A stretch of DNA of 59,337 nt, taken from Candidatus Margulisiibacteriota bacterium. Lineage in GTDB: Bacteria > Margulisbacteria > Riflemargulisbacteria > GWF2-35-9. Location: contig JAQURL010000007.1 in assembly GCA_028715625.1 (NCBI GenBank), positions 1 through 59,337 on the forward strand, written 5' to 3'. The position numbers were made by a program, and so were the translations under genes. Positions 1 through 58,400 of the stretch are shown one piece after another; within the stretch, counting starts at the first letter, position 1, and each line of letters starts with the position of its first letter. The notes under the pieces were generated by a model. That model worked only from the letters and a program-made list of their open reading frames with translations. It searched no databases and was not told the DNA's origin.

Positions 1-389
1 GCGTGGATTTTATTTGATCTCAGAAAGGTGATATCCCCTGGTTCTAACATGCCCCAGTCTGCGTAGAAGGATGCTTCTTTTTCCAGTCTGTTTTTTTCGC
101 CAAGAAGGTCATCCTGTAATTTTTTTTGTTTAATTATTTTGTCGGCAATATTTATAAGTTCTTCCATAGGATGGCTGGAAGATTTTTGCGTGTTTTTAGC
201 AAAAGCCCCCAGAATTGTTACAGCTTCGTCGATTTTACTTATAACCTCCCTTACATCCGATATTTCTTCGCTGTCCGGGGTTTGTTGATAAGCCAGATGC
301 AATACTCCTGATTCCTTGAGCTTTTGTACGAAATCTTTCCGGGTTTTGTCGCTGAGAAAAAGAGATATCTTTTTCATATTTTCAATCAT
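1..389 (-). CDS. atpI: V-type ATP synthase subunit I, N-terminal part (cut by window edge)
   Basis: The reading frame opens at an ATG at 389 and runs off the left edge of the window, giving about 129 codons. The N-terminus (MIENMKKISLFLSDKTRKDF, then a stretch rich in Glu and Lys) is typical of the cytoplasmic arm of V/A-type subunit I (the a-subunit), which forms the stator and the ion half-channels. The membrane part lies outside the window. Its ATG overlaps the TGA stop of subunit D (ATGA at 386-389), so translation is probably coupled. It is last in the visible order E-DUF2764-A-B-D-I; a proteolipid subunit K would be expected next but is outside the window. The call rests on the N-terminal pattern and on operon position. 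Confidence 0.85.
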   Translation of the reverse strand, partial: MIENMKKISLFLSDKTRKDFVQKLKESGVLHLAYQQTPDSEEISDVREVISKIDEAVTILGAFAKNTQKSSSHPMEELINIADKIIKQKKLQDDLLGEKNRLEKEASFYADWGMLEPGDITFLRSNKIH

Positions 390-1003
390 AATTCCACCTC
401 TTGTAAAACCCGATTGTCCTGGATTTTAGCTTTGGCTATTTTGCCTGTAACCACAGCCGCCGTTTGCATATCGCCCAGGTAGATGCTGATTTTTTTTATA
501 TGATCTCTGGTTTGAGGTATTTTTACTTTTTCAAAAAGGTTAACCCTTTGAGTGGTGGTGGTAAGTTCCGCACGGATCAATTCCTTTTGTTTCATTAGAA
601 CATTTTCTTTAAGAGTAAGCGTCAGCAGGGTTTTTAGAGCTTCCAGGCCTTTGTCTACCCATAGGGGAGTATATTTGTAATCATAAGGTTTTTCTATAAA
701 ACGAACATTTTCAAAAACCGGTATATCTATGCCAGCCACATTGCCTGTTCTTATGATTACTTCCGTTACTTGCAGAATATCGTTTAGAGGATAGTCCTCA
801 TGGAAAACATCTATCCATTGCTGGATATCTGAAAGAAATTCCTCTTTTTTACGACAGAACAATTCTTCTTCGTGAAGTATCTTGACCAGTTCCATTTGCA
901 GCTGCTGTTTTTTCAGGATCAGTGTGGGTAAATACTGGATATATCTTTTCAGGTCGTCTTTCTGCTTTTTCTGTTCGTTTTTTGTGAGTTTAATGGCGGC
1001 CAT
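386..1003 (-). CDS. atpD: V-type ATP synthase subunit D
   Basis: This 205-residue protein is the central rotor stalk subunit, which transmits rotation between the A3B3 head and the membrane ring. The N-terminal motif MAAIKLTKNEQKKQKDDLKR and the long basic/hydrophobic heptads match family members, which form an antiparallel coiled coil and are usually 200-220 residues. I chose the ATG at 1003, just past the subunit B stop (TAA, 1005-1007), because the family begins at this position. A TTG at 1033 would add ten atypical residues and overlap the B gene. There is no clear Shine-Dalgarno sequence before the ATG, so translation probably depends on coupling to subunit B. The stop overlaps the start of subunit I. 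Confidence 0.93.
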   Translation of the reverse strand: MAAIKLTKNEQKKQKDDLKRYIQYLPTLILKKQQLQMELVKILHEEELFCRKKEEFLSDIQQWIDVFHEDYPLNDILQVTEVIIRTGNVAGIDIPVFENVRFIEKPYDYKYTPLWVDKGLEALKTLLTLTLKENVLMKQKELIRAELTTTTQRVNLFEKVKIPQTRDHIKKISIYLGDMQTAAVVTGKIAKAKIQDNRVLQEVEL

Positions 1004-1004
1004 T

Positions 1005-2300
1005 TTATTGTTTGGGCCAGAATTCTTCGACAAGTTCGCTTCTAAAATTTGTTTCCTGCGGCAAGAAACACTGGCTGAGTATTTTCCAGCCGTTATCCAG
1101 AGCCTGATCCAGAGGGATATTAACTTTCAGGTTCATCATCTGGCTTTCAAACAGTTTCCCATATCTTAGAAGTTTATTATCCCACTCATTCATACGAAAA
1201 CCCATGGACCGTTTTTCTTCAGTCTCTTTATACTGTGCGTATAACTGGATCATACCGTCCATAATGGCTCTGTGATCTTTGCGTGTATCCTTGTTGACCA
1301 GCTGCTTTAACCGGCTGAGCGAACCGAAGGGCTCAATACGTCCGTTCCTTAAATAAAACTGCCCTTCAGTAATATATCCGGTATTATCAGGAACAGGATG
1401 TGTAACATCATCCCCCGGCATGGTAGTAACAGCAAGAATTGTTATGGAGCCGGCGCCTTCAAAATCAACAGCTTTTTCATAACGGAAAGCAAGCTGGCTG
1501 TATAAATCTCCGGGATAGCCGCGGTTAGAAGGAACCTGTTCCATGGTTATAGCTATTTCCTTAAGAGCATCAGCATAATTTGTCATATCGGTTAAAAGAA
1601 CCAGAACTTTTTTGCCGGTTAAGGCGAATTTTTCTGCCACAGCCAGTGCCAGGTCAGGAACCATAATTCCTTCAACTATCGGGTCTGCAGCTGTATGGAC
1701 AAAAAAGATCGTACGGCTCAGAACGCCACCTTCTTCCAGTGTATTTTTAAAATACAAATATTGATCATATTTGAGACCAATTCCTCCCATAATGATCATG
1801 TCAACCTGTGCCTGCATGGCTATCCTGGCTAAAAGTTCGTTATATGGTTCCCCTGAAACCGAGAAAATAGGCAGTTTTTGCGATTCTACCAGCGAATTGA
1901 ATACATCGATCATGGGAATATTGGTTAACACAATATTTCTGGGAATAACACGTTTAATAGGATTAACCGAAGGGTCAGCAATTTCGATCAGATTTTCAGT
2001 GATGGGACTGCCATTATCTCTGGGATTGCCGCTTCCGTCAAAAATCCTGCCCAGCATGTTATCAGAAAAGCCAATCTGCATGGGATGTCCCAGAAACCTT
2101 ACTTCATCACCTGTGGAGATACCTCTGGCCCCGGAAAAAACCTGAAGGTGAACAATATCATGGTCCAGACGGATAACCTGTGCCAGCGATTTTTGCTGGC
2201 CGGATGTGATCTCTGCTAATTCCTGATAGGCTATATCTTCAGCCTTAACAGTGATTACATTGCCAGACATGCTCAAAATTTTTGTACAGACTTTTTTCAC
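1005..2300 (-). CDS. atpB: V-type ATP synthase subunit B
   Basis: This 431-residue protein is the non-catalytic nucleotide-site subunit of the A3B3 head, equivalent to F1 alpha. As in other B subunits, the P-loop position carries a non-Walker sequence ([18 protein letters not shown]). The family features [17 protein letters not shown] and the [17 protein letters not shown]-like stretch (here [20 protein letters not shown]) are present, followed by the [20 protein letters not shown] region. Length is normal. The gene begins 12 bases after subunit A ends and is followed at once by subunit D. It is part of one operon with conventional order, and nothing suggests truncation. Confidence 0.96.
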
Positions 2301-2312
2301 AAAATTTTCACC

Positions 2313-4034
2313 TCAAACCTCAGTTAATAATTTGCTAATTACAGTTTCCTGTTCTTTAAATTCGTCAGAACCCCAGGCTTTATAATTCCAATCAATAAAA
2401 GTGTGCCGCAGTTTATAAAAATAATTTCTGGCAGTTTGTTTGTCAGTAAATTCAATTTTTTTATCCAGAATAGTAACAAGCAGTCTGAAAACATATTTTT
2501 GTCTTTCGGCTGTTGTGGCAGCGTCTGTTTCATCAAACGCGTTTTGTTGCAGATAAACACCGTCGAGGAATTCGCTCTTTAAATATACAACAAAGTCATC
2601 AAGGGAAGTGCCTTCTTCTCCCACTACCTTCATCATCTGATAAACATTGTTCCCTCTGCGCAGTATCTGCTTGGCAGTTTCAACAAGTTCGGAGGAAATG
2701 ATGCTGGAGTATTTGCTCCAGCTTTCCAACGGATCTATGGAAGGGAATTTTCGGGCATTGGCTCTGTCTCTTGATAAACCGTGGAAGGCACCTACAACTT
2801 TTAGTGTGCTTTGAGTAACCGGTTCCTCGAAGTTTCCTCCGGCAGGACTTACTGTCCCTCCTATGGTCAGGCTTCCATTTGAACCATCAAATAATCTGAC
2901 AAGACCAGCCCTTTCGTAAAAGCTGGCTATGCGAGATTCCAGATAGGCCGGGTAAGCCTCTTCACCCGGAATTTCTTCCAGTCTTCCGGAAATCTCACGC
3001 ATGGCTTGGGCCCAGCGTGATGTGGAATCTGCCAGCAGCAGTACATTCAACCCCATTTGTCTGTAATATTCAGCCATGGTCGTAGCGGTATAGACTGATG
3101 ATTCTCTGGCCGCAACCGGCATTGAGGATGTGTTGCAGATAATTATAGTACGGTCCATTAGCGATTTTCCGGTTCGCGGGTCGGTTAATTCCGGGAACTC
3201 TCTAAGTGTTTCCACAACTTCTCCGGCTCTTTCACCGCAGGCTGCGATGATAACTATATCAATTTCAGCATAGCGACTTGTGAGTTGCTGTAATACTGTT
3301 TTGCCAGCCCCAAAAGGTCCAGGTATACAGTAGGTGCCACCTCTGGCAATAGGAAAGAATGTATCTATGATCCGGACTTTAGTAATTAAAGGTTCAGTCG
3401 GCTGTAATTTTTCAGAATAGGCGCTTATTGGAATTTTTACAGGCCAGAAGAAAGACATGGTTAAATCGGTTGTTTTGCCATGGCTGTCTTTAATAACTGC
3501 GATTTTGTCATGCAGAGTCACGGCTTTGGAAGGACAGATAAACTCAACAGTATAATCATTAGTATGGTAAAAAGGCACCATTATTTTGTGCTGAAATATG
3601 CCTTCAGGCACAGTTCCCAATACACTGCCACCCCTGACTGTATCACCTATTTTTACGACAGGTTTAAATAACCAGGACTTATCTTTGGGTAAGGCATTTT
3701 TTTCTACACCGACCGGCAAAAAGAAACCGAATTCCGCAGCCAGCTCTGCCAGTGGGTTCTGCAAGCCGTCATAAATCTGGCTGAGAAGTCCAGGCCCCAG
3801 TTGTACAGACAACAAATTGCCCGAGAATTCAACTTTGTCGCCAATTTTTATACCTTTTGTGTATTCAAAAACCTGCATATAAGCGACATCTTTGTTTATT
3901 TTGATTACTTCAGATTTAAGTTTTTGTCCCCGACTGACTACATAGGCTACTTCGTTCTGCATAATATCGCCTTCGAATTTGACAGCGATCATATTGCCGT
4001 TAACAGCTTGGACCTTACCTGATTGCGTGCTCAT
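2313..4034 (-). CDS. atpA: V-type ATP synthase catalytic subunit A
   Basis: This 573-residue protein is the catalytic subunit that hydrolyses or makes ATP. The Walker A motif GPFGAGKT is at residues 239-246, followed by GERAGEVVE and the SRWAQAMREISGRLEEIPGEE segment typical of catalytic A subunits. The non-homologous insert of V/A-type A subunits is present at about residues 110-200. Length fits the bacterial family (570-600). The first 20 bases overlap the end of the DUF2764 gene, which suggests translational coupling. The enzyme may work as an ion-pumping ATPase or as a synthase. Coupling to H+ or Na+ cannot be judged because the proteolipid lies outside the window. Confidence 0.97.
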   Translation of the reverse strand: MSTQSGKVQAVNGNMIAVKFEGDIMQNEVAYVVSRGQKLKSEVIKINKDVAYMQVFEYTKGIKIGDKVEFSGNLLSVQLGPGLLSQIYDGLQNPLAELAAEFGFFLPVGVEKNALPKDKSWLFKPVVKIGDTVRGGSVLGTVPEGIFQHKIMVPFYHTNDYTVEFICPSKAVTLHDKIAVIKDSHGKTTDLTMSFFWPVKIPISAYSEKLQPTEPLITKVRIIDTFFPIARGGTYCIPGPFGAGKTVLQQLTSRYAEIDIVIIAACGERAGEVVETLREFPELTDPRTGKSLMDRTIIICNTSSMPVAARESSVYTATTMAEYYRQMGLNVLLLADSTSRWAQAMREISGRLEEIPGEEAYPAYLESRIASFYERAGLVRLFDGSNGSLTIGGTVSPAGGNFEEPVTQSTLKVVGAFHGLSRDRANARKFPSIDPLESWSKYSSIISSELVETAKQILRRGNNVYQMMKVVGEEGTSLDDFVVYLKSEFLDGVYLQQNAFDETDAATTAERQKYVFRLLVTILDKKIEFTDKQTARNYFYKLRHTFIDWNYKAWGSDEFKEQETVISKLLTEV

Positions 4035-4533
4035 AGTATGTTTCCTTTAAAACCTCGAATTTTTTATAACCCAATTCCTTATTAAATAAAAACAGCCTGT
4101 CCAGAATTTTTAGTTTTTCCAGATAGATTATTAAAATATTCAGATCAAAATTATATTTGGTTTCTTCCGAGTCCAGGAAGTCCCAGCGGAATTTTTCATA
4201 AGCTTTTTCCTTTAACAAAGGATTAACCTGTTCCATGATTTTTCTGCTTTCGGCTGAGGCATTTACGCTGTCCATGTTTTTTCTGGAAGGATCCCGCAGT
4301 ATGGCAAGTTCTGTTTTTAGTTTCAGATTATAATCATACCAGTTTATTAAAAAATTATTATTAATAATATTGATGAATTTAACATTAGTGTCAACGGTAT
4401 TCAGGATTAACAAATCCTGCGAGGTAAGCCATTTCCGGCATTCTTCAAAAAAAGTTTCTTTGTTAATGAGGGGCTTGGTGTTAAATTTTAAGCTGGGTAG
4501 GGAAGCGATTAGATAGTAGTATTTATTGTTCAT
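4015..4533 (-). CDS. DUF2764 family protein of V-type ATPase operon
   Basis: This 172-residue protein begins with a YYYLIASLPSLKFN motif, the hallmark of the DUF2764 family found in V-type ATPase operons of spirochaetes, Chlamydiae and Bacteroidetes. It sits in the usual place between subunits E and A and overlaps subunit A by 20 bases. The visible operon has no recognisable subunit C, and DUF2764 proteins have been thought to fill the role of C, which connects the central stalk to the membrane ring. That role is inferred from position only. No membrane segment or enzyme motif is visible. The sequence is mostly charged and helical, with many Lys, Asn and Leu residues. Confidence 0.82.
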   Translation of the reverse strand: MNNKYYYLIASLPSLKFNTKPLINKETFFEECRKWLTSQDLLILNTVDTNVKFINIINNNFLINWYDYNLKLKTELAILRDPSRKNMDSVNASAESRKIMEQVNPLLKEKAYEKFRWDFLDSEETKYNFDLNILIIYLEKLKILDRLFLFNKELGYKKFEVLKETYYEHAIR

Positions 4534-4538
4534 AAAAA

Positions 4539-5132
4539 CTAGAGAATTTTTGATATTTTAGGGTTAACAAAATCCTTAAAAATTTCAGTCAAAGATTCGG
4601 CAGTAAAGTCATAGTAAGAGTTATTGCCCTTTTTGCCAATTCTGAAACCATGCTGAAATTTATCTGAAACCTTTATGGTAAGACCTTTTGATAGATCTTT
4701 TTTAACTTCCTGATAAAGAAGTTTTTCCAAAGCATCTTTGTCCTTACTATTCAGAACAACCTCCATATCGATTACGCCTTTATTCTGAAAATGCTCGGCT
4801 ATTTTGAGGATCATGTCCTTCATTACAGAGGGGGTCAGCTGTTCTGCGATTTGTTTGTTTAAAACTACATCAAACATTTTAATAAGGTTGTCTTTTAAAT
4901 TCAGAATAATATCTCGAGCGGTCTGCTTGAGGGCTTCTTCACCGGTTTCTTTTAGTTTTATGGCCTGACTTTGTGCTTCTTCTATTAATAATATTTTTCT
5001 GGATTCAGCATCCCGGATAATTTTATCGGCATCTTCCCGTGCCGTGAGGATGATTTCCTGAGCTTGTTTCTCTGCTTCCTGTACTCCATCCGCTTTAATC
5101 TTGTCGATTAACGATTGCAGCTGAATATCCAT
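4539..5132 (-). CDS. atpE: V-type ATP synthase subunit E
   Basis: This 197-residue peripheral stalk subunit has an N-terminal helix (about residues 5-75) rich in Ala, Glu, Lys and Gln with coiled-coil spacing (AEKQAQEIILTAREDADKII). It is followed by a globular domain that ends in a YDFTAESLTEIFKDFVNPKI-like segment typical of the family. It is the first gene of the ATPase block. There is no Shine-Dalgarno sequence before the ATG. Instead a good promoter is placed so that transcription would begin at or within a base or two of the start codon (see the promoter entry). The ankyrin-repeat gene ends 55 bases upstream, so read-through from it is also possible. Confidence 0.9.
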   Translation of the reverse strand: MDIQLQSLIDKIKADGVQEAEKQAQEIILTAREDADKIIRDAESRKILLIEEAQSQAIKLKETGEEALKQTARDIILNLKDNLIKMFDVVLNKQIAEQLTPSVMKDMILKIAEHFQNKGVIDMEVVLNSKDKDALEKLLYQEVKKDLSKGLTIKVSDKFQHGFRIGKKGNNSYYDFTAESLTEIFKDFVNPKISKIL

Positions 5133-5139
5133 ATTTGTT

Positions 5140-5168
5140 AGTATAGGGGATTAATTTTTATTAGGCAA
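5140..5168 (-). promoter_or_regulatory. Sigma-70-type promoter giving a leaderless V-ATPase transcript
   Basis: On the minus strand, TTGCCT (5168-5163) is followed after exactly 17 bases by TATACT (5145-5140). The ATG of subunit E starts 7 bases after the -10 box, at 5132. A start site at the usual distance would therefore fall at or within a base or two of the start codon. The bases before the ATG (TCCCCTATACTAACAAAT) contain no Shine-Dalgarno sequence, which fits a leaderless mRNA. The hexamers match consensus at 4/6 and 5/6. The promoter is inferred from sequence only. Confidence 0.55.
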
Positions 5169-5187
5169 TATTGTTATGTAGAAGTCA

Positions 5188-6729
5188 TTATAATCCGGCA
5201 AGTGTTTTGGAAATGTCTCTGTAACCTTTCATGTCAGCCAGAATACGGGCTGTAATACCGTTATTGTTGCTTATATTGATATCAGCTCCGTATTGCATTA
5301 GTATTTTTACCATTTCATTATCATCATTATTAACTGCAGCCATTAATGGTGTCCACTTGTCTTTGGTGGTAGCGTTTACATTGGCTTTATTGTTCAAAAG
5401 CAGCATGACGGTTTCCAGATGTCCGTTATTAACTGCAGCCATTAGCGCTGTCCAGCCGTCTTTACGTCTGGCATTGATATTAACATTATAGTTCATAAAT
5501 AATTCGATGATCGCGTTATGCCCGTTATTAGCAGCCGACATCAGCGCTGTCCAACCATCGAAGGTTTTAGCATTGATATTGGCTTTATTTTTGAGAAGGA
5601 TTTGGGCTTCTTCCACATGATTGTTATGCGCGGCTGACATCAGCGCCGTCCAGCCGTCATTTCTGGCCGCATTAACATTGGCTTTATGGTTGACAAGCAG
5701 CTGCAAACAATCCGCATATCCCTGGTCTGCTGCTGACATTAAAGGGGTCCAGCCGACATTGTTGCTGACATTGGCATCAGCACCATATTTCAGTAAAATT
5801 TTTGCGGCATCCAATTGACCGTAGTAAGCAGATTCCATTAAGGGGGTTTTGTTTTTTACTACTTTGTTTAAATTTACATCTTTGCTGATCAGGTAAAGAA
5901 GGGTCTTGATATTACCTTTACCAGCGGCATCCAATAGTAACTCATCATCATTCAAAACCACATTTTTTGAGGGTTTCTTTATTAATTTGGTATTGTCTGA
6001 TTTAGGAACAAATAACCACAGACCAGCTAGAAATATTATTAATAAAATTGTAATAATTAATACTTTTTTTCCGGAATTTTTTTTAGATTTAGCCAGCGTC
6101 ATAAGCGGTTGTTCTTTAACAGAATCCAGCTCAGCTATTCTGAAATCATGATTGGAGAGCTCGACCAGACTTATCAGATGATTTATAAGGGGTTCGAAGT
6201 CCGATCTCAGGAGTTTAAGTTCCTGGAAACGTTTTGTTTCTTTAATCAGTTCATATAACTTGTCATAGCTTATATCCTTGAAACTATTCAAATTGAAGTG
6301 TTGTTTGTGAAAAGTAATATCGTCAGTGTATTTTTGAATATCATAATATGATCTTATGTCTTGATTTTTCTTTTTTAAATATTTGACCAGTGATTTTTCA
6401 AAATACATTTTTAAAATCAGATGTATGGTCCTGTTTAATCCCAGGTTCATAAACTGTGAAAAATTCAAAAGATCGGTTATGTTGGGATATAAAGGATGTC
6501 CGATATCAGGATTCAGGAATTTGTTTATTGTGGATTGAGTGACTGTAAAAACATCTTGGCAGAGTTCATTATTCTCGTCAGGCAAACAGATATGCCCGGG
6601 CTGATTTTTGCCAAGCGTCTCGTAAGAAATGGCCTTTGGCCAGCGTTTTATCTGCTCTTTAGGGCTGTTTTTATTTGGCCATTCATCAAGATATTTCTTA
6701 ATATCGTTACATACAAAGGATATTGTCAT
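5188..6729 (-). CDS. Membrane-anchored ankyrin-repeat protein
   Basis: This 513-residue protein has three parts. Residues 1-215 form a largely helical N-terminal region that I do not recognise. Residues 221-241 are a single hydrophobic segment (KKVLIITILLIIFLAGLWLF) that looks like a transmembrane helix, with lysines on the N-terminal side. From about residue 260 to the end there are seven to eight ankyrin repeats of about 33 residues, with cores such as DGWTALMSAANNGH and LLKYGADANV. Ankyrin repeats bind proteins, but no partner can be named. The upstream sequence lacks a Shine-Dalgarno site and is AT-rich near the ATG. The gene lies directly upstream of the V-ATPase genes on the same strand, so it may be co-transcribed with them. 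It is probably anchored in the inner membrane, but the orientation is uncertain. Confidence 0.85.
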   Translation of the reverse strand: MTISFVCNDIKKYLDEWPNKNSPKEQIKRWPKAISYETLGKNQPGHICLPDENNELCQDVFTVTQSTINKFLNPDIGHPLYPNITDLLNFSQFMNLGLNRTIHLILKMYFEKSLVKYLKKKNQDIRSYYDIQKYTDDITFHKQHFNLNSFKDISYDKLYELIKETKRFQELKLLRSDFEPLINHLISLVELSNHDFRIAELDSVKEQPLMTLAKSKKNSGKKVLIITILLIIFLAGLWLFVPKSDNTKLIKKPSKNVVLNDDELLLDAAGKGNIKTLLYLISKDVNLNKVVKNKTPLMESAYYGQLDAAKILLKYGADANVSNNVGWTPLMSAADQGYADCLQLLVNHKANVNAARNDGWTALMSAAHNNHVEEAQILLKNKANINAKTFDGWTALMSAANNGHNAIIELFMNYNVNINARRKDGWTALMAAVNNGHLETVMLLLNNKANVNATTKDKWTPLMAAVNNDDNEMVKILMQYGADINISNNNGITARILADMKGYRDISKTLAGL

Positions 6730-6856
6730 ATATAATATATCGGTTTTTATATCATTTTACCCCACTTTTCACCGAATTTCTTTACTTATTATTTTTACCA
6801 CTATTATGGCATACTGTTTAGTAATGAAATTGCCACATAAAAAAGAGGATTAATTT

Positions 6857-9800
6857 ATGAATAGATTAATATTGTTTAAGGATTACAAGAGAATTTTTAA
6901 AGACGTATTTATTATCTTCCTATTCACTTTGAGCTTTAGCACGGAAACATTGGAAATAAAATCCGGCGCATCTTTACGACAATGGGGTAACGGATGTTGG
7001 GGACCGGGGTCTTCATATAATAACTATAATATAACCGGTAATTATTACCATGACCTAAAATTTTCTACTAATATTCCTGGTAATCGAGGTATCTGGATAG
7101 GACTAATCAACGCTACAGAAAATTATACTCTGGATTTAACAACTTATGACAGAATAAACTTTGATGCCAGAAACAATAACAGCCAAACTATAGTTTATCT
7201 AAAAGACATCAGCAATAACATAACCAATAAAATTTCTTTATATCAACTTTCAGCGGAATATAAAAATTTTACAATATCTGTGAATTCTTTTCTAACCACT
7301 GGTTTTGATATGAAAAAAGTTAAAGAAATACTGTTTGAACCATATTTTAATAATAATTCCGGAACAAATAATTTTATCGCCCGAAACATTAAATTGATAT
7401 CAGATACATTTTATTTAAAAGAAGGGGCTGATAGTGTCCCATGGGGTAACGGGGCCTGGGGTGGTACTTATACATTTTTCCAGATAACACAAAACTTCTA
7501 TCACCAGTTGGAATTTACCAACAGCAATTCCGGCTTCTGGATCGGTATAACACCTTCGAAGAATAAAGATTTGAAACCATATTCCAGACTTTTTTTTCAG
7601 GCAAAAGCCAACAATTCCGAGGCATTGATTTTTTTCAAAGATACAGCCGGAAGAGAATCTTCCAGGTATAAGATTTTTAATATTTCTTCTGATAATTTCA
7701 CGGAGTACGAAATCAGTATGAACTATTTTCTATCCGGGAATTTTAACATAAAGAATGTTTCTGAAATTTTATTTCAGGCCGCTGAACCGCTTTATAACAC
7801 TTCGCAAAAATTAGTTTTGGCTAATATACGTCTTGATAGCAGACAATTAACCACGGGCACATTAAACACCTTGCTTGTCGATGTTTTAAACACACAACAA
7901 TATAAAAATTACAGTCCGCTTATAGGCGGGTTAAATTATAGAAAGCAACTGCAACATTTATGGAACGGTTATAAATATCGATTTATTGATAGTTATAAAA
8001 ATATAGTGGCTCCTAATAAGAATTTGCAAGGCCTGGTCTGGGACACTTATACCGGAATATCACCAACCAAAATAGAAGCAGCGGACATAGCCAAGTCTGA
8101 AGGATCCGGATATGCATTGCTAATGGCTGTTTATATGAATGATCAAAAAACATTTGATGAAATTTTCAGGGCTACCTGGTTGAGCAAAATGCATAAAAAT
8201 ACATCCACAGGTTTGTTCACCTGGAATATTAAAACAGACGCGACATTCCTGGGAAATGATACTAATTCCGCGATAGATGCTGATCAGGATATCGCAATAA
8301 GCCTGATACTGGCAGATACACTTTTAAAGAAAGGTGTCTGGAAAAATACCGGACAAAATTATTATGGATGCGCGCAACAGCTTATTAATGCTATTTATGA
8401 TCAGGGTATTTTATTCGGTATGTTCTTGCTCCCCAGCGACGAAAGTGGCCCGGATGGCAAGGGATTTACTGAAGTTGAGAATGAAACCAATTTGTCCTAT
8501 TTTGCGCCGGCCTGGTATAGAATATTTGACTCTTATGAAGAGATTGACCATGACTGGCAGGCAATTATTGACTGGGGCTATAAGACTATAAATCGGGTGA
8601 ATAAGTATAAAAAGCCTATAGCTCCTGATTGGTGCGATTTCTGGGGTAATAGTCTGGAACAAAAATACTGGTTTTATGCTTATATGCTGGGCAAAGATGC
8701 AATTCGGGTATATTGGCGTCTTGCTACAGATTGGTTATGGTTCGGAGAACCCAAGGCCAGAGATTATTTAACCAGCACCAGACAGCTCTTTCAAGGCTGG
8801 GGAGGCATTTTAAAGCCTGCCGAAATAAAACCTTTGGAGATGAACGGAAGCCTTTCTTATTTAACAAGAGGAAACGCCTTTAATTATACGGATATTTCTT
8901 ATGTTTCCATGTTTGCCGCCGGAGCAATGGGAACAACGGATAATGTTTATCGCAGCCAATGGAAGCTGGCTTATGATGATTATTTGTATTTGGCGCAGAA
9001 CGGGCTGGATTCTTTTTTGGGAGCAAAAAGGCCCGGACAACCTGAAAAAATAGATTTTAACACTAAATATAATTATTACAATCATTGCCTGGGCATTTTG
9101 TCCGGCCTTATGCTTACCGGTTGTTTCCCCAATATTTATCCGGTTAATACGATTATAACTAAAAATATAGATGTCAGCAAAAATCTTAACGCTTACTATC
9201 CTTTTGACGGAGATATTAAGGACAAATCCGGCTATAAAAGAGACCTAAAAGCAAGCGGTACTCTATATTATTCATACCCTGATGCTGTCGCAGGTAAGTC
9301 TTTGAAATTCACTAAACAGCAGTATTTAACAACAAGCAATTTTACAGCAGGCTGGGATAAAATTACTATTTCTTTATGGCTGAAAACTACTGCTCCGTCT
9401 GAGAATTACAAATTAATCAGCACAGCCTTGTGGCCGCCGGGATCAGGGTGGATGCTGGGCACACAATATCCTGAAGCCTGGGCTGAACGTGGAGTGTCTA
9501 TAAGAAAAAACAGCAATTTTAGGCGTTATACCGGATTTGTCGCAAATCAGTGGAACCATCTGGTTTTATCTTACGACCGGACAAATTTTATAGAGTATAT
9601 TAATGGTGAAATTTCTTATGCTGAGAAATTAATTAACGGTCCGAGAATCGGTTCAGGAACAAAACTGATGATTGGAGCCTGGCTGCCTTATACCGCATAC
9701 AACTATTCAGGTTTAATGGACGAAGTAAGAATTTATAATAAGTCTTTGACAGCTTCGGAAGTGAAGACACTTTATTCTTTAAGAAAGCCTAACAATATTT

Positions 9801-27978: not shown

Positions 27979-28965
27979 ATGAAACATTGTCGTATCTGCA
28001 AGGGAAATTTCAAAAGCGAATTGCAAGTAAAAGAAATGATGTTCGGGTCTGGCAAGGAATTTACCTATCAGCAATGCGAACATTGCGGTTGTCTGCAAAT
28101 CAAACAATATCCTGAAGATATTTCCGGTTTTTATTCTGACCAATACTATTCACTGCAGCCTCTGGAATTTAGCAGAAGGTCCCGGTTCAAACAGTTTATA
28201 CGGCGACAATTTACCAAATACTATTTATATGGCCTTAATCCCTTGGGATATGTGATGTTTAAGCTGCTCAAATGGCCAGCTCCTTTTTATATAAAATGGT
28301 TTCAGGAAGCTGGGGTAAACCTTAAGTCCAGAATCCTGGATGCAGGATGCGGTGCCGGTTATTTATTATTGTCTATGTATAAGGATGGGTTCAGGCATTT
28401 AGCCGGTGCAGACCCGTTTATAAATGAAGAGATCACATACGACCGGAATTTAATCATTTATAAGAAAAGTTTAGAAGAAATGCATGGTAAATTTGACTTT
28501 ATCATGATGAATCATTCCTTTGAGCATATGCAGGAACAGGAAATGATCTTGCGGCAGGTTTATCGTTTGTTGCGTCCTAATAGTTATCTGATGATCAGGA
28601 TCCCGGTTGCAGATTCCTATGCTTTTCGGGCATATGGGGCTAACTGGGTGCAGTTGGACGCACCCCGGCATTTTTATTTGCATACAGTTAAAAGCATCAA
28701 TATCCTTGCGGAGAAAACCGGATTTATTGTAAAAAAAATTGATTATGATTCCAATGAATTTCAGTTTTGGGGAAGTGAACAATATATACGAAATATCGCT
28801 TTGAGGTCTGAAAAGTCTTTTGCTGTCAATCCAGAAATGTCGATCTTTACACAGGATGAGTTGCAAGCCTATAAAGCAAAAGCGCTCGTTTTAAACAAAA
28901 AGCAGGAAGGTGACAGTGCCTGTTTTTATCTATATAAAAAAGATAATAATGATCGTAGACACTAA
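27979..28965 (+). CDS. SAM-dependent methyltransferase with N-terminal zinc ribbon
   Basis: This 328-residue protein opens with a Cys-rich segment (HCRICKG, then QCEHCGCLQIKQYPE), an apparent zinc-binding domain seen in a family of sugar methyltransferases. The catalytic domain begins at about residue 118 with RILDAGCGAGYLLLSMYKDG, followed by FDFIMMNHSFEHM and LRPNSYLMIRIPVADS. The substrate is probably a sugar of the nearby polysaccharide. No Shine-Dalgarno site is evident; a TAAAAT box lies 6 bases before the ATG, without a good -35 partner. It abuts the acyltransferase-3 gene (stop and ATG adjacent). Confidence 0.87.
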   Translation: MKHCRICKGNFKSELQVKEMMFGSGKEFTYQQCEHCGCLQIKQYPEDISGFYSDQYYSLQPLEFSRRSRFKQFIRRQFTKYYLYGLNPLGYVMFKLLKWPAPFYIKWFQEAGVNLKSRILDAGCGAGYLLLSMYKDGFRHLAGADPFINEEITYDRNLIIYKKSLEEMHGKFDFIMMNHSFEHMQEQEMILRQVYRLLRPNSYLMIRIPVADSYAFRAYGANWVQLDAPRHFYLHTVKSINILAEKTGFIVKKIDYDSNEFQFWGSEQYIRNIALRSEKSFAVNPEMSIFTQDELQAYKAKALVLNKKQEGDSACFYLYKKDNNDRRH

Positions 28966-46412: not shown

Positions 46413-49400
46413 TTGCGGTTAACAAAGTGGAATTTTAATTTGAAAAATAAAAGCATTGCTTTCTTTAAATCTTTTTTAGTTGCAGGCATTTTAATCGGTT
46501 CTTTGGTTTTTGCGGACAATCCTCCGACTGAACCTACTCAGCTTAACGTTAGAGGTCTTATTAATCCTACTTCTTTGACTCCTAATTATGTAAATTTTTC
46601 AGCCAGATATAATGATCTTGATGCAAATGATAGCTGCAAATCATATCGCATCCAGATAGCACCCGGACAAACATTTAATCCGGCCATGGTCCTTTGGGAT
46701 AGCGGGACAGTAAATGTCACGGGAATATTATCAGCAAATACTCAAAGCGCGCTATTGGATTTTTCACCATCCGATTTGCAATGGTGTGTTACATATAGCT
46801 GGCGTATAAGATTTATTGATAATCAAAACAATATCGGGCCCTGGAGCACCGAAAATGTATTTTTTCGTTACAGCGAGGAAATAAAACCTTCATTTCAGGT
46901 AGATATTTCTACAGAGGATTATGACAAATGGTATAAAACAACCGCCAACTGGATGAGCTATATTACGATTAATTTTTGGGATAGCGGAGGGTCCAGCCTC
47001 AATGCTGCCTATTTTGAGTATCCGAATGTTCAACAGACACTAATGCCCGGTGTCTTTAACTTTTTAAATATGACCGCTCATTTTGCTGTAATTTTTGCAG
47101 CGCTAAATGAAGGCAAAAATACAATAAGCATAGGTGTTAGCGACAATGCCGGCAACTTTGTGAGTTCTTCGGTTTTTTATATTGAGAAAGACACAGAACT
47201 GCCGAGTATGAATATTTCAGAAAATTTTTCATCTACATATTTCACCGATTGGCAAACAGCGAATGTCGGTTTCTACGATGTAATCAGCGTAAATTTTTCA
47301 GATTTTTCGGGATCGCATCTGCGAAATATTTATTACGGGGTTTCTTCAAACGGACAGCTTATCTGGACGTCTATAACCACGAATCTTAATCAGAATGTAT
47401 ATAACAGTTTATGGGGCATACCATGGAATCAGTTTAGTGAAGGGACAAATGAAATTTATGTGTCAGCGAACGATTATGCTGCGAATAGTCGTTCATTATA
47501 TCTGGCATCAGTCAAACGTGATTCTGTAGCACCTCAGGTTATAAATAATGTTGATAGCGGAATTTATGTAAATAAATGGTATAACTGGTTTGATCAGTCC
47601 ATAAATATAGATTTTGTCGATACCCAGTCCATGATCCAGAATATAGACTACCTGGTTTCATATAATAATCAATTTCAAAATTCGGTTGTAATAACCAGAA
47701 ATTATTCGAAAATACAATATCAGGATGATTTTTCTATTAATTTTAACTCACTGACAAACGGTGTTAACGAAATTTATGTGTCAGTGAATGATTATGCAGG
47801 CAATAAAGTTTTACAAAAAGCATTTTATCTGCAAAAAGATATTTCCGTACCTATTATACAGAACAATGAGAATTCAGAAGATGTTAAATTTAAACAGTGG
47901 TACAAAGCACAGGTTAGCTGGATGCAAAACATTGATGTTGATTTTAAAGACGAGCAATTTTCCAAACTAAAAAACGTTAAATACGAAATTCAAAACAACA
48001 TAAACGGTGCCCGAGTTATTTCTGATAATTTAAATATATCTTCCTATAATTATAATTGGGGAATACAGTGGAACGACACTATCTCCGGGACAAATAATGT
48101 TTATGTATCGGCTGAAGATAACGCAGGGAACCAGACCAGTCAATATGTTTTTACTTTTATAAAAGATGATCAGCCCCCCCAAATAGCTAATGATATGGGT
48201 GACCCCAATGTTTTATTGGCCTGGTATAACAAAGAACCGGCCTGGTTAAGTGATATCAGCATACATTTTTATGATCCGAATTCAGGTATAAACAATATAG
48301 AATATGCGATCTCTAATAATTCGGGGATTAACTGGCATGATATTTCCCGTAATGTAAAACAAAATACTTATTTAAATAATTGGGGTATAAGCTGGAATAA
48401 CTTAGTTGAAGGATACAACAGTATAATTATTTCGGTAGATGATATTATTACCAATTCTTATACACAGCTGTATTTTACTTTTTATAAGGATACAAATTCT
48501 CCCAATTATAATTGTCAGGAAAATTCGACGGACGCAAAATTTTTGTCCTGGTATCATGAGGCACCGGCATGGCTGCCCAGCATAAACGTTACCTTCGTTG
48601 ATGTCGGCTATTCAAAATTAAAAGATATAACCTACATGGTTTCAAACGGGACGCTGACAACCGGGGTAATAAGCAACGCGACAAATCAGGACGCGTACAA
48701 TACCAAATGGCCGATTGACTGGAGTTTGTTAAAAACAGGAACAAATAATATTATAGTTTCCTTTAATGATAATGCCGGGAATAATCGGACAAGTCCGGTT
48801 TTATTTTCGATTAAAAAAGACCCACTTATTCCTTCATACAGTTGCACGGAAATTTCCAGCGATCCCAAATTTGCCAAATGGTATTCGAATTTTCCAAACT
48901 GGATACAATCTATAACTTATACTTTTTATGATGAAGGTTTCTCTCACTTAAAAGATATATCCTATATTATTTCCAATAATTATACCGGAATTCACGAACA
49001 CTTATTAACAAGTAATTTGGGTAAAGACACATATAGTAAAACTCTTAACGATGTTTTATGGAACTGGATGGACAATGGTGTGAATGAATATGTAGTTTCT
49101 TTTAATGATAATGCCGGGAATACAAAAAATAGTGTTTCCTTTATTATCCTTAAAGATGTACTGCCTCCCTGCTATATTAATGATGAAACAGCAGATTTCA
49201 ATAAATGGTACAATACAAGCCCGGAATGGATGAATCATATCAGCGGGAACTTTGTTGACAGCGGAGATTCCAAACTGAATTATGTCGGCTTTCTGGTCAG
49301 TAATGGAGAAAGCGGAGTTTTTTACAGGGATATTTCCACGAATCTTAATTTAGCATCTTATAATAATAACTGGTCTATAAGTTTTAATGAGTTGGACAAT

Positions 49401-52400
49401 GGAGTAAACAACATTTTTGTTGTTATTTCGGATAATGCTGAAAATTTAGTTAATACTCAAATATTCGCAATCAGAAAAGATATCTTAGTTCCTTCATTCG
49501 CTAATAATATCAGTTATTCAAATGTGTGGGAAAATACACCACCTTCCTGGATATCATCCGTAGACATTGATTTTTTTGATGAGGGACATTCATTATTAAA
49601 CAATCTCGATTACATAATTTCAGCAAACGGTTATCAAAAGACAATAACAATTGCGCATCAGGTGAACGCATATAGTTATCAGAATAACTGGAATATCAGC
49701 TGGAATGATTTGGTAAACGGGACTAATGAAATATGGATATCATTTAACGATAATGCCGACAACCGGACTTTAACCAAGGCCATAGAAGTCTGGAAAGATG
49801 TATTGAACCCGTCAATTGATAACAAAATGATCTTGCCCGTGGCTACATATAATAAATGGTATAACTTTAAACCTGCCTGGGCAGACGCCGTGAGTGTGAA
49901 TTTTTATGATGAAGGTGGATCAAGACTAAAAAATGCCTTCTATGAAGTGGCAAACGGAAGTTCAATAAACTGGTATTTGATCAGCGACCCCATTAATAAT
50001 AATACTTTAAATCAAACCTGGATTATATCATGGGATGTTTTGTACAACGGTACCAATAACATTTATGCCCGGGTATCGGATAATGCTAAAAACGGCAATG
50101 TTTCCTCTCTGCTCTTCTGGATAAAAAAAGATATCATTCCTCCGATTATTTCTTGTAACGAAATATCAATCGATGAAAAATTTTCACCCTGGTATAAGGA
50201 TGCTCCGGAGTGGCTGAATAATATAGATGTCGATTTTGAGGATTACGGATTTTCGAATATCGGAAGTATTTATTATATTGTGGACAGTGTATCCGGTTCT
50301 GCTCGTTATACGATTACAAATAATGTTTCTTTAACCAGCTATTATTCTACCTGGGCTATTTCCTGGAATACATTGGCCAATTGTACCAATAGTATCAGAG
50401 TAGCCGTAAGCGATAATGCCGGGAACGGTGTGATAAGCGATGTTCTGTTTTATATTAAAAAGGATACAATTCCTCCGACATACTCCAATTTGCTTTCAAA
50501 TGTAACGACCGCATCATGGTTAAATAAAGCCCCCTCCTGGTTTTCAGATATTCAAACACAATTTTATGATCAGGACCTGTCCCGATTACAAGATTGCCAA
50601 TATATCATTCTTTATGATGATTACAGTACCAATGAACACCCTTTTTCGATAACCAATAATCCGAATTTGGTTACTATGAACAGCCCTTGGATGATAAATT
50701 TTGATTCTTTAGCCGAAGGTTACAACGAAGTTATGGTGAAAGCCATTGATAATGCAGGCAATACCGTTCAATCACCTACATTTGCTGCTATCAAAAAGGA
50801 TACCATAGCTCCCTATATCATTAACAATGTACCTGCCGATAACCAATGGAATAATTCTGTGCCCGGCTGGTTGTCCGACCTGGATGTAAAATTTGAGGAT
50901 ACAGGTGATGAAGGTAAAATTTCCAATATAAAAGATATCGTTTACAAGATAAAAGCCAATGGTGAATTTATTCAGGAAGTTACCCTGACCAATAATTTGA
51001 ATCAAAAATATTATACCACCTCATGGAATATAACCTGGAGCCAGATTACAAATGGTGCCAATGAAGTCTATATTTCAATTAACGACTATGCTACCAACGA
51101 ACGTTTGGATAAAATATTCACTCTTAAAAAAGATACAATAGCGCCATCATATAATTGCCGTGTCAGCGCTGATTTCAATCTCTGGTACAAAGAAAAAGCA
51201 ACCTGGATGTGGAACCTGGATATAGATTTCTATGATACAGGGAATTCAAAACTGAAATATATTTACTATGGAATCTCAGCAAATAATACGACTAATTATT
51301 ACCTGATTGAAAGTTCGCCTTTAAACCAGGATGAATATACCCCCAGTTGGAGTTTAAATTGGGATTATTTGGATGAGGGTACATCCGATATTTTGGTGAA
51401 AGGCTTTGATTATGCCCAAAACATGGTAACAAGCCCGGTTCTCTTTCATATAAGAAAAGATTCCTTGCTGCCATCTTATAATCTGCTGGAAGATCCATCA
51501 GCCGGCAAGTTTAATACATGGTATGGGCCTGACCCGGGTTTGTTTGAAACTATAAATATTCAAATATTTGATCAGGGATATTCAGGTTTGCAGGATATAG
51601 CGTTTTTAGTGTCGGGTAATAATACTATTAAAGAATATGTTATAACCTCCAATTTAGGTGGGTTATCTATAACAATCAACAGTTTTTCTATTTCCTGGAA
51701 TTTATTGGATCAGGGAATAAATCAAATCAAACTACGTATTACCGATAACGCCGGAAATTGTTTACAGACCCCAATACTTTTTCATATATTAAAAGATACC
51801 ACGGTTCCCAGCGCCAATAATAATGGCAATTATGGCTTTAATCACTGGTACTGCACATCTCCCAGCTGGTTAAGCGCTGTTGATGTAAGCTTTTATGATA
51901 ATGAAGGATCGAAACTGAGCAATGTGTATTACGGTATAGTTACAGAATCAACCAAGTGGGTAGAGATTGCGCATGCTATTGATATGAATGTTTATAACTT
52001 TAAGTGGCCCATTCTCTGGACGGATTTAATTAACGGTACCAATGATATCAAGGTTGCCGCTAAAGATAATGCCGGGAACAGCTTCACGTCCAATGTTTTA
52101 TTTCAGATATTGAAAGATGAAATTCTGCCAACTTTTACCTCCTTAATAGTTGTTCCGGTAGTCAGCCAGAATAAATGGTACAACTATTTCCCCGATTGGT
52201 TAAATACTTTAAATGTAAATTGTTATGATCTTGATTATTCCAATATTAAAAAAATAGAATCCGGCGTTAACAGCACCTGGTATGTTATTACGGACAATGT
52301 GAGGATTCCACAATATCTGGATGCGATCAAAGTATCTCAAAATTATTTGGTCAACGGACAGAATGACTTAAAAGTGCGAATCACTGATTTGGCGGGCAAT

Positions 52401-55400
52401 CAGACCGAAAGCCAGACGTTGGCTTATTTCAGATTGGACAGGGTTGCTCCTACCATCAATATCGGCACACCGATTAATGCCAGCAGCCAGAATGCTTGGT
52501 ATTGCGCTGCGCCAAACTGGTTATCTGATCTGGATATTGATTTTACCGATTTGCTTTATTCAAATTTGTATAAAGCTGAATATCTTGTGTCCAGCAGTCA
52601 GCAAGAATTAAATCCGGTTTTAATAACCCAAAACAGTAATGGTATGATGGGATTTTATGACAAGTGGGCTGTTAACTGGAACTCATTAACCAATGATTAT
52701 AATGACATATTTGTTCGCCTGGAGGATATAGCCGGAAATGTTACAACTACCAATAGTTTATTCCATATAAAAAAAGATGTAATTCCACCTACATATAATG
52801 TCGTGTTCATTCCCTCGGTGGCCAGTCAGGCTATGTGGTATAACTATCAACCATCCTGGCTTACAGAGATTAACGTCCAGGTGTTTGATACCAAGTATTC
52901 TTTATTAAAAAAAGTTGATTACGGAGTAAGTACCGTAAATGGAAATACATCCTGGAAAAACGTTACCACAAACAATCAGGGCACACCGACTTATGACAAG
53001 ATTACCACAATGGACTGGAATTTATTGGCAGACGGAACCAATAATATATTGTTCAGGGCAGAGGACAACGCTGGCAATCGCACAACAATCGATAGCTTAT
53101 TTTTTGTAAAAAAAGATATAACCAATCCTACATATCAATTCAATATGAACATTCCGTCTGTCAGTCAAAATAGCTGGTACTGCGCTCTTCCGGCCTGGGC
53201 TCTGCAAATAAGCGCAAATTTTTTCGACAACATATCAAATTTGCTCAAGGTTGAATATTGCGTTAACAATCAGGATGTAATAACAACAAATATCATAACC
53301 CAGAATGTTAATGGTATAGCTACTTTTAACGCCTTATTTCCCATCAACTGGGATTCTTTGAGTGACGGTATAAATAATATTTATTTCCGCGCTCAGGATC
53401 GGGCCAATAATGTTTTAATTACCAATTTTATGTTTGTTATCCGGAAGGATACCCGATTGCCATCTTATAATGTAATTAGCGATATTCCTGCCATTAGCCA
53501 GAATAGATGGTATAACTATTTGCCGGATTGGGCCCAGTCAATAGAAATTAACTTTATCGATCAGGATTATTCTCATTTGCGTCAGATTGATTACGGTCTG
53601 ATTAACGCCAGCGGAAATATCAAGTATATTACGATTACAAAAAATGATGACGGGTTGGAAACATATACAGAACCATTTGCAGTAAGCTGGAACCAGGTAG
53701 AGAACGGAACAAATAGTATAATCGTCAGGCTTGAGGACAGGGCAGGAAATATCGTTACCAGCAACAGTTTGTTTGTACTCAAAAGAGATTCGGTAATCCC
53801 AAGTTATAATACAGTTAGCCCAATACCACAGGTGAGCCAGAATATATGGTATAACAGACTGCCGAATTGGGCACAGTCTTTGAATTATACATTTTCCGAC
53901 GAGTTTTATTCTCATTTGAAGCAGATTAGATATTATATTATTACAACAAATCCCGAATTGTCCGTCTGGGATAATATTACATCCAATGTTAACGGTGATC
54001 CTTTTTATTCATATACGTGGAGCGTCAGCTGGAATAAATGCGCGGATACAACAAACAATATCTATCTTTATGTAGAAGATAATGCCCAAAACATTATCAC
54101 TTCCGATAAACAATTTATCTTAAAAAAAGATACGATTAAGCCGGTTATAATAAATAATGAAGTTAATACCTTCCAGAACTGGACAAGAACAAGCAGTGAT
54201 AAATTGGGAGATATAGGAGTTTTCTTTAAAGATACATTATCCCACTTGAAAGATATTAAATATGTTATAACCAACCTGGGCAATACAACAACCACCGCTA
54301 TCCTGATGGAGAACGGTAATATTGAGGAATATACTACAAGCTGGTCCATAAAATGGAGTGATCTGGGCGGAGGACTTAATACAGTAAATGTTTTTGTTAC
54401 GGATAACGCCGGCAATACTAATAATCAGCTGGTATTTGTTATAAAGAGAGATGATAAATACCCGGAAATTATTAATAATTTAGTATTATCTGCCGATGCT
54501 CTGAATATGTGGTATAGCGAGGCTCCGGCCTGGATAAACGGTGTGGATGTGGATTTCAGAGATAACGACTCTTTATTAGATGATATTTACTATATGGTCT
54601 CATACAACGGCCAGATACAGAATATTGTTTTAATTAGTCAGAACGTTAATTCAGCCAATTATACAAAAAACTGGCAAATTTCCTGGAGTTTACTGGTTTC
54701 CAAAGACATAAACGATATTTATGTAATGGTTAGTGACAATTGTGGCTGGGTTACCCAGTCTCTATTATTTACCTTGAAGAAAGATTTTATAAGTCCTCAT
54801 CTCGATAACCATGAAAATTCTCAAAATATAACATTCAATACATGGTATAACCAGGATAAAGGGCAGTTTAATAATCTGCAGATTTTCTTCTATGATGCAG
54901 GCAGCGGTCTGAATGATATAAATTATGGTTTGGCTACGAATAACACTACCATATACTGGTATCCGCTGGTATCTAACTATGGTTATTTAACATATAATTC
55001 CGGAGTAAATGTGAGCTGGAACAATTTGAATGAAGGTGTGAATAATTTATTTGTATCTTTTAATGACTACGCTTTGAATACAGTCACTTTGAATTTGGTT
55101 ATACCCTTACGTAAAGATATTACAACACCTGATTATTTTGATAACGGGGGCAGGGATGTTATTTGGCATAATACGGCACCGTCCTGGCTCAGCCAACCGG
55201 GCATTGAATTTCATGACAGAGGTGGTTCAGGTTTAAGGAGTATTTTTTATCAAACAATCCAGAATAGCAACACTGTTAACATATCGACGATATCCGACAA
55301 CATACCGGCCGCATCATTGAATGATTATTTGAATAACTGGAATATCAGCTGGGATCAACTTGCGAACGGCACCAATGATATAAAGTTCATAATCAAAGAC

Positions 55401-58400
55401 AATGCCACAAACGTAAATACAACCGACATAATATTCTCTATCCTTAAAGATGAAATAATTCCTTCCTATTCCTCTCATGAAAACCCGAGTAGTCCTGATT
55501 TTCAGATTTGGTATAGCTTAAAATACAAACCGGATTTTCTTAATCATATATATGTAGATTTTAGTGATGAAGGAGGTTCTCTGCTACAAAACCTTCAGTA
55601 TGTGGTATCAAATAACAATCAGGTATATTCGTATAAAATCAGCTATAACGTGGTACAAAAAATATATACTAATAACTGGCCTATCAACTGGCCTGATTTG
55701 AAAGACGGAACTAACGATATTACCATTAAAATTACCGACAGGGCCAATAACCTGACTACAAGCAACAAACTATTCACAATTTATAAAGATGATATTCCGC
55801 CCAGCTATAACAATATGGAAAACAGTAATTTTGGTGTGTGGTACAGCAATGTAAATTATCCAACCTGGATCGAACATATAAGTGTAACTTTTAATGACAC
55901 AGGATATTCAGGCCTGAACAACATATATTACGGTGTGAAAAATAAAACCGGTTTGTCCTGGTATTTTATAACGGGCAATTTGGTAAGCAAAGAGCAATTT
56001 AACACTCCCTGGGCTATTGACTGGTTAACTTTGACCAACGGGGTAAATGAAATTTATGTCAGTTTCAATGACCGCGCCAGAAATCAAACCTCAAGTTCTG
56101 TTCTTTTCCAGATACTGAAGGATATTATTCCACCGTCGGCCAACAATAATCAGGTGAGCAGTTTTGATGTCTGGTATAATTATAAGCCAGCCTGGATGAG
56201 CCAGATAAATGCCAATTTTTATGATACCGGATCAAGTAATTTAAAAGAAATAGGGTACGGCATTTTATATGATAACCAGCTTTATAATTCCTTTACTATT
56301 TCCAGCGACATGAACAGCGAAGTTTATACAAAAAACTGGGACATTAACTGGAATGCATTAAATGAAGGGACAAGCGATGTGATTGTTATGGCCACAGATA
56401 ACGCCTATAACTCATTTATCAGCAATACGTTTTTCCACATACTAAAGGATACTTTGTCACCGACTATTGATGACCATGAAAATTTAAGCCATGGGGCAAT
56501 GGACCAATGGTATGGTGTTCAACCGGAATGGAGCAAACATCTTAGTATCAATTTTGTTGACCGAGGATTTTCTGGGCTTGTAACAATTTCTTATGTTATA
56601 TCTGACAATGGACATACACCGCTTCCACAGTATTTGTCGACCACCTTGCAGGGTACTACTTATAATCAACTCTGGCAGGTATCATGGCCATCCTTATATG
56701 AGGGTACAAACAATATAAACATTCTATTGTCCGATCGGGCAGGAAACCAGTCAACTTTTAACAATTTGTTTTATATAAGAAAGGATATCTCAACTCCATA
56801 CCTGATAAACAATTTTGCGTTTGATGATAGTAAATGGTATAAGGATGAACCTCTGGTAATCAGGGCCGTAAACATAAATTTCTATGACACATATTCGGGA
56901 TTGAATTCTGTTCATTATATTATTTCCGATAATAACGGATTAAGGGAAAAAACTATAAGTGACAATGTAAATGGCGGTAATATTTACGAACTGCCCTGGT
57001 TGATATCCTGGAATATCCTGGAAAATGGTATTAATGATATTTATGTGTCAGCTAATGATAAGCTGGATCATTTACTTTACAGTTATGTATTTAAGATCAA
57101 GAAAGATATAACTCCACCTTACTTCATAAATTTCGGCAATCCTGATTTGGTCAAATGGTATAACGAAAAACCGCTCTGGATGCAGGAAGTTAACGTTGAA
57201 TTTTACGATCAGGGTGGTTCCTTTATCAAAGATATTTTTTACGTGGTTTCCAATAACGGGACAATTATCAGCAGCGATATAATCAAATCCGGGTGGAACG
57301 CTCCAACGTATTCAAGCGGATTTGATATTAAATGGGAAAACCTGGATAACGGTATCAATTCCATTATTATCAGCATGAATGATAACGCCGCAAATACAAC
57401 ATATAACACGTTATTTAATATCAAAAAGGATATTATCTATCCAGAATTTATTGTCAAATCCAGCCCAACATCTTCTAATATATGGTATGCGAACGCGCCT
57501 TCCTGGTTTAATGCTGTTAATATTGAATTTTCCGATAGTGGTGGTTCACAGCTTAAACAAATAAAATATGGCTTATCAATAAATAACGCTATTTATTATT
57601 GGGAAATAATTACCGATAACAGATCCATTCCATCTTATAATAAGCTTTTTAATATTAACTGGGGGAAAGTTACAGAAGGTGTGAATGACATTATTATTTA
57701 TGTGGAAGACAACGCCGGAAACATTGTTAGTCAAAAAATCGGTTACGTAAAAAAAGATACTTCGGTGCCACGAATAAATAATAATTCTTACGATCTGGTT
57801 CGTTTTAATAGTGAGGTAAAGGGCAGGGGTTTATATAATTTTAACATTACTTTCCTCGATGACATCAAGGGTTCTCCGCTAAATGATATTCAATATATTA
57901 TTTCTCATAATAATATAAAAGATTATAGGTATATTACGCAGAACTATAATTTATTCAGCTACACCAATACCTGGAATATTCCCTGGCAGGTCGTATCCGA
58001 CGGCTACAGTGAAGTTTATCTTTCTTTAAATGACCTGGCCAATAATTTGGGATATTATTATGCGTTTCAGATAATCAAAGACGATTTGCCCCCGGTTGTA
58101 ATTAATAATGATGACAAGCAAAAATATAATGTCTGGTTGAATAATACATATAAACCTGCGGAACTGGACAGTTTAAATATATATTTTGTAGACAGTGGGA
58201 ATGCTAACGTCAATTCCAAGCTGAACGACATATATTACTGCATTTCCAATAATATGTTTGTAACCTGGAACATTATAACTATAAATTATTTACAAAATAC
58301 TTATAATTACGGATGGCGGCTGAGTTGGGAAACTTTAATCAATGGGACCAATGATATTTATGTGTCGGCTAACGATTTTGCCTATAATACAACTTCTATA

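Follow-up and report, generated by a model that had tools for sequence, protein, structure and literature searches.

The V-type ATPase genes near the left end of a 59,337-nt stretch of Candidatus Margulisiibacteriota DNA (hereafter, the window) raise the question of where their message begins. A promoter-like sequence lies so close to the start codon of the first gene that transcription might start on the codon itself, producing an mRNA with no 5′ leader. An earlier note on this DNA had predicted such a leaderless transcript and had suggested that the arrangement could be a trait of the genome.

The V-type ATPase operon and the site upstream of subunit E

All genes of the operon lie on the minus strand. 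Subunit A (2313-4034), subunit B (1005-2300; GTG start at 2300, with an ATG start at 2270 possible) and subunit D (386-1033; TTG start at 1033, ATG at 1003 possible) match their profiles above the curated cut-offs (NF003220, NF002555 and NF002565, respectively), as does the DUF2764 protein (4015-4533; PF10962), the usual neighbour in operons of the order E-DUF2764-A-B-D. A further gene, of which the start is present (3-389), runs off the contig; its position makes it a candidate for subunit I. The product of the first gene (4539-5132, 197 amino acids) has no Pfam match, and its best NCBIfam model, NF002424, scores 169 bits, under the cut-off of 241 bits; a 43% identical homologue is found in a genome of the same class. 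The full-length alignment to NF002424 and the position of the gene suggest that it is subunit E. On the same strand, 55 nt upstream, lies the gene for an ankyrin-repeat protein of 513 amino acids (5188-6729), a possible source of read-through. A scan of positions 1-8000 lists no terminator-like site between this gene and subunit E, and the window has no Rfam match at the gathering thresholds. At the opposite end of the window lies a giant protein gene, one open reading frame of 4308 codons (46413-59336, plus strand) that is cut off by the right-hand end of the contig.

The elements upstream of subunit E, read on the minus strand, are exactly as the earlier note gave them. A TTGCCT hexamer (5163-5168; 4/6 match to TTGACA) is separated by 17 nt from TATACT (5140-5145; 5/6 match to TATAAT), a spacing within the 16-18 nt of sigma-70 promoters. 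TATACT is preceded immediately by CCCC and followed by a 7-nt discriminator, AACAAAT (5133-5139), then by the ATG (5130-5132), which places it within the approximately 5-9 nt at which a -10-type hexamer precedes TA-led genes. Both hexamers fit the boxes learned from the other first genes of this genome that lack a Shine-Dalgarno (SD) sequence: the -35 box reads TTG, then A/C/T, C/A and T/A, and C at position 5 of the -10 box has a share of 15-18%. The predicted transcription start is A5132 or, alternatively, T5133; a T at -1 followed by an A at +1 would make a good pyrimidine/purine start. No SD word (AGGA, GGAG, GAGG, AAGG or AGGT) and no purine-rich stretch precedes the gene. Its ATG is the sole start in the reading frame and the majority of homologues align from residue 1 (MDIQLQSLIDKIK...), so that the start codon is well supported.

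A consensus scan of positions 1-8000 finds 28 promoter-like sites, the subunit E pair among them, against 24.6 ± 4.2 in shuffled sequence. As such matches occur at chance level, a single TTGCCT/TATACT match proves nothing alone, and the scan was rejected as sole evidence. By the sequence statistics given below, the placement of the motif before the ATG does exceed chance expectation once the counts from the genome are included.

The description of the complex as a core energy complex went too far. Elsewhere the genome carries two alpha genes of F1-type ATP synthase (contigs 22 and 71), so the V-type enzyme is not the sole rotary ATPase; the one on contig 22 scores above the cut-off of the "alternate F1F0 ATPase" model. 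Moreover, among 75 subunit E homologues with the start in hand, 69 have an SD and only two a -10 box at 5-9 nt.

-10 boxes before start codons in the genome and its relatives

The earlier note had proposed counting -10 boxes before starts across the genome. The count covered the window and 40 stretches of the same genome, 20 kb each, together 859 kb out of 2.63 Mb (33%; 35.7% GC). Genes were called with a simple dicodon model; the final set comprises 538 ATG genes whose context could be used. Genes with a divergent neighbour or a gap of at least 45 nt were taken as heads of transcription units (n = 283), and those following a gene on the same strand within 25 nt or less as internal (n = 237). 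A -10 match was defined as a TATAAT-like hexamer with at least 5/6 identities, A2 and T6 being required, 5-9 nt before the ATG; the null was obtained by shuffling the last 24 upstream bases gene by gene.

SD words precede 157 of the 283 head genes and 142 of the 237 internal genes. The 126 head genes without SD include 39 with a -10 box at 5-9 nt, as compared to 11.5 ± 3.2 under the null (0 of 2000 shuffles as high), whereas the 95 internal genes without SD include 9 (null, 7.1 ± 2.6). In this 33% sample, the -10 signal of TA-led genes is thus enriched at unit heads. The excess over the null amounts to about 22% of the head genes without SD, which corresponds by arithmetic to about 10% of all 283 sampled head ATG genes; some 11.5 of the 39 matches are expected from composition alone. 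The distance profile peaks at 6-9 nt (10, 12, 7 and 8 genes) and falls to about 2-3 farther upstream. When only genes with a single possible start are considered, the box is found in 20 of 51 at 5-9 nt and in 1-8 in other 5-nt ranges.

A TTGACA-like hexamer (at least 4/6) lies at a spacer of 16-18 nt in 20 of the 39 -10 matches, against 4-6 at four wrong spacer ranges. The complete combination occurs in 20/126 head genes without SD versus 2/95 internal genes, and subunit E is one of the 20. Genes placed like subunit E, behind a gene on the same strand with a gap of 45-100 nt, have a -10 box in 12 of 34 cases, seven of these with a -35 box. Among the 19 other complete matches, four have no Pfam match and the rest are ordinary genes, including those of a P-type cation ATPase, a LeuA-like synthase, response regulators, a MotA/ExbB protein and HypA.

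Head genes with an SD show no peak at 5-9 nt, their -10 boxes being spread over about 14-35 nt; as a control this carries little weight, since in these genes the place is taken up by the SD. When the consensus was permuted, TATAAT ranked first of 20 A/T permutations (42/129 genes in an earlier gene set), with TAATAT and ATAATT so close behind (38 each) that the test is weak alone. The base at -1 does not separate matches from non-matches (pyrimidine in 25/39 and 55/87, respectively). Loss of the anti-SD was considered as the cause of the starts without SD and rejected, the CACCTCC sequence being intact in the 16S RNA of this genome; its presence is in keeping with a mixed use of starts with and without SD. 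Among operon-internal ATG genes, 95/237 have no SD word; SD-independent initiation or coupling is also common.

Two further genes of the window had been cited as having -10-like boxes close to an ATG that lacks an SD. For the methyltransferase gene starting at 27979 (plus strand), TAAAAT does lie 6 nt before the ATG, but the -35 box matches at only 3/6 positions, which makes it a weaker example. For the Poly_export/SLBB (Wza-like) gene starting at 41442 (minus strand), the TATACT box is there but lies 14 nt before the ATG, so that the predicted message is not leaderless but has a short leader of about 7 nt. This box is preceded by TGT, the extended -10 form, and the gene is intermediate between leaderless and normal.

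The suggestion that the arrangement is a trait of the genome gains from its recurrence in the phylum. Eight relatives, from family to phylum level, have the -10 box in 45/111 head genes without SD (null 7.3 ± 2.6; 0/2000 as high) and in 8/79 internal ones (null 4.3); here the base at -1 leans to pyrimidine (33/45 matches against 33/66 non-matches). Twenty further same-phylum stretches, one per genome, give 24/52 (null 4.3 ± 2.0; 0/1000 as high). In this last sample the -35 test is unsupportive (8/24, controls 4, 7, 3 and 8) and internal genes also exceed the null (9/59 against 2.9; 1/1000 as high). Eight sets from other phyla and named loci have the box in 5/70 genes, and Escherichia coli in 0/14 over 100 kb, the first 50 kb of which are also one of those eight sets. 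Nineteen stretches of 16 other-phylum genomes give 5/38 (null 1.8 ± 1.3; 21/1000 as high), a weak excess suggesting that some of these may share the trait. Three of the other-phylum stretches (G089, G088 and G086) have the box at 5-9 nt in 2/2, 1/1 and 1/2 first genes without SD, respectively, all tiny counts.

The layout at subunit E itself is not conserved and appears to be a local change, as the homologues of two same-phylum genomes (G002 and G007) have an SD. Subunit E was found in six of 95 genomes, its own included, three of them of the same phylum, and within the set of 80 loci retained, from which close copies of this genome may be missing, the A subunit of Ca. Aadella gelida is the nearest (74% identity); on these two grounds the operon looks patchy. 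No relative of subunit E was found in viral contigs. Ca. Aadella gelida presumably belongs to the Omnitrophota. Placement of the present genome in that phylum from the A subunit is not supported by the length of RpoB, whose open frame measures 1069-1093 amino acids in this genome and the nine same-phylum genomes searched, 1236 in Aadella, and 1235, 1249 and 1154 in three searched genomes titled Omnitrophota. Identity of 16S RNA over the longest pieces (77.0% and 75.3% to two Omnitrophota, 77.5% to Scalindua) does not discriminate.

The subunit E site in trained models and the competing explanations

A mixture model was trained on the 125 other head genes without SD, subunit E being left out. 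It learned a TATAAT box with the tolerance for C at position 5 noted above, 17 nt as the favoured spacer length (72%) and TTG as the first three bases of the -35 box. The likelihood ratio of subunit E under this model is 652, a value reached by 1/125 peers, 0/95 internal genes and 0/157 head genes with an SD. With the -10 box alone, the ratio is 17, reached by 4/95 internal and 3/157 SD-bearing head genes. Ratios of at least 100 are found in 13/125 real genes versus 0, 0, 3, 0 and 2 in five shuffled sets of 126 genes each. The model is overconfident, giving a posterior above 0.5 to 13/95 internal genes and arriving at a mixing share of 0.30-0.54 even when the input is shuffled. The mixing share was therefore rejected as a frequency of leaderless genes and observed minus null was used instead. 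In view of this overconfidence we rely more on a second model, trained only on the 163 head genes without SD of the same-phylum relatives. Here the ratio of subunit E is 115, the seventh highest of 126; this value is reached by 1/95 internal genes, 1/157 SD-bearing head genes and 0/142 SD-bearing internal genes.

The interpretation most consistent with these data is that the subunit E message is leaderless, one case of a lineage-wide trait that exists beside SD initiation; from the sequence evidence we regard this as likely. The excess of -10 boxes at head genes without SD and not at internal genes, the spacing of the -35 boxes and the recurrence in relatives all support transcription from the ATG, as had been predicted. 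RNA polymerase with the housekeeping sigma factor would recognize TTGCCT-17-TATACT as a sigma-70-type promoter and start at A5132 or T5133, so that the E-DUF2764-A-B-D message would begin with its own start codon. Ribosomes can start on a 5′-terminal AUG, as is known from leaderless messages; here translation would begin in this way, presumably by 70S ribosomes, and the downstream genes would be read by coupling or from their own SD sites.

Alternatively, read-through from the ankyrin gene could be the sole source of V-ATPase transcripts, subunit E being translated from a leadered RNA without SD by an SD-independent, AT-rich (S1-type) mechanism, and the -10 box being fortuitous. The same orientation of the two genes, the 55-nt gap and the terminator scan fit this explanation, and the fact that about two-fifths of internal genes (95/237) have no SD word indicates that translation without SD on leadered RNA probably occurs. 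Against it stand the restriction of the combined -10 and -35 signal largely to head genes (20/126 versus 2/95) and the place of subunit E among the strongest sites in both models, and we judge it unlikely. Fortuitous resemblance in an AT-rich upstream region (the sample has 36% GC), an explanation that overlaps with the preceding one, draws on the chance-level frequency of promoter-like matches in positions 1-8000 and on the 11.5 of 39 matches expected by composition. It is very unlikely given that a model trained on other genomes accommodates the placement, the 17-nt spacing and the -35 box, and that only one of the 95 internal genes attains the score which this model gives to the site.

Leaderless initiation and read-through could also coexist. 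With a promoter signal present and no terminator listed in the gap between the ankyrin gene and subunit E, the leaderless promoter may sit inside a larger ankyrin-V-ATPase unit, and read-through may add a leadered message to the leaderless one. This arrangement, which overlaps with our main interpretation, seems possible, if on the doubtful side. Extended to the whole phylum, the leaderless interpretation would imply two modes of initiation, in which transcription of about one-fifth of unit heads lacking an SD begins with the AUG, a -35 box being present in many of them at a distance of 17 nt from the -10 box, and in which genes switch modes in evolution, as the V-ATPase operon would have done (SD in relatives, leaderless here). 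We consider this broader proposal reasonably probable.

Relation to known leaderless systems

The data point to a further lineage of an already known kind of gene expression. According to Zheng et al. 2011 (PMC3160421), TA-led, that is leaderless, genes occur in 207/953 genomes of the groups listed, and leaderless genes are known above all in Actinobacteria and Deinococcus-Thermus. The TA-led genes described there and those found here have in common a TA-like -10 element some 10 bp ahead of the start codon, absence of an SD, co-existence with SD genes and, in AT-rich genomes, the TATAAT-like form; they differ in that about half of the -10 matches here (20/39) are accompanied by a -35 box at a spacer of 16-18 nt. 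In Deinococcus-Thermus, -10 regions a few bp before ORFs act phylum-wide as leaderless promoters, and adding a -35 region raised transcription (PMC12340547). The share given there is about 30% of ORFs, compared to the present 22% or so of head genes without SD above the null, or about 10% of all 283. Literature searches for leaderless genes in Margulisbacteria found nothing, and those combining leaderless genes with V-type ATPase (by title and start of abstract) or with Omnitrophota (in the portions of the records consulted) returned nothing on topic; such results do not show that no account is in print.

The V-ATPase E genes of Spirochaetes, Omnitrophota and others belong to the same subunit families; the E homologues are mostly preceded by an SD (69 of 75), absent here. 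Their operons share the order E-DUF2764-A-B-D. If the interpretation proposed here is correct, this lineage would be added to those with widespread leaderless signals. In such genomes, gene-calling programs built around the SD can place start codons wrongly, and the 5′ end of expression constructs would have to be designed differently for this lineage. The V-ATPase operon provides a tangible example, with a single gene that is SD-led in relatives and probably driven by a leaderless promoter in this genome.
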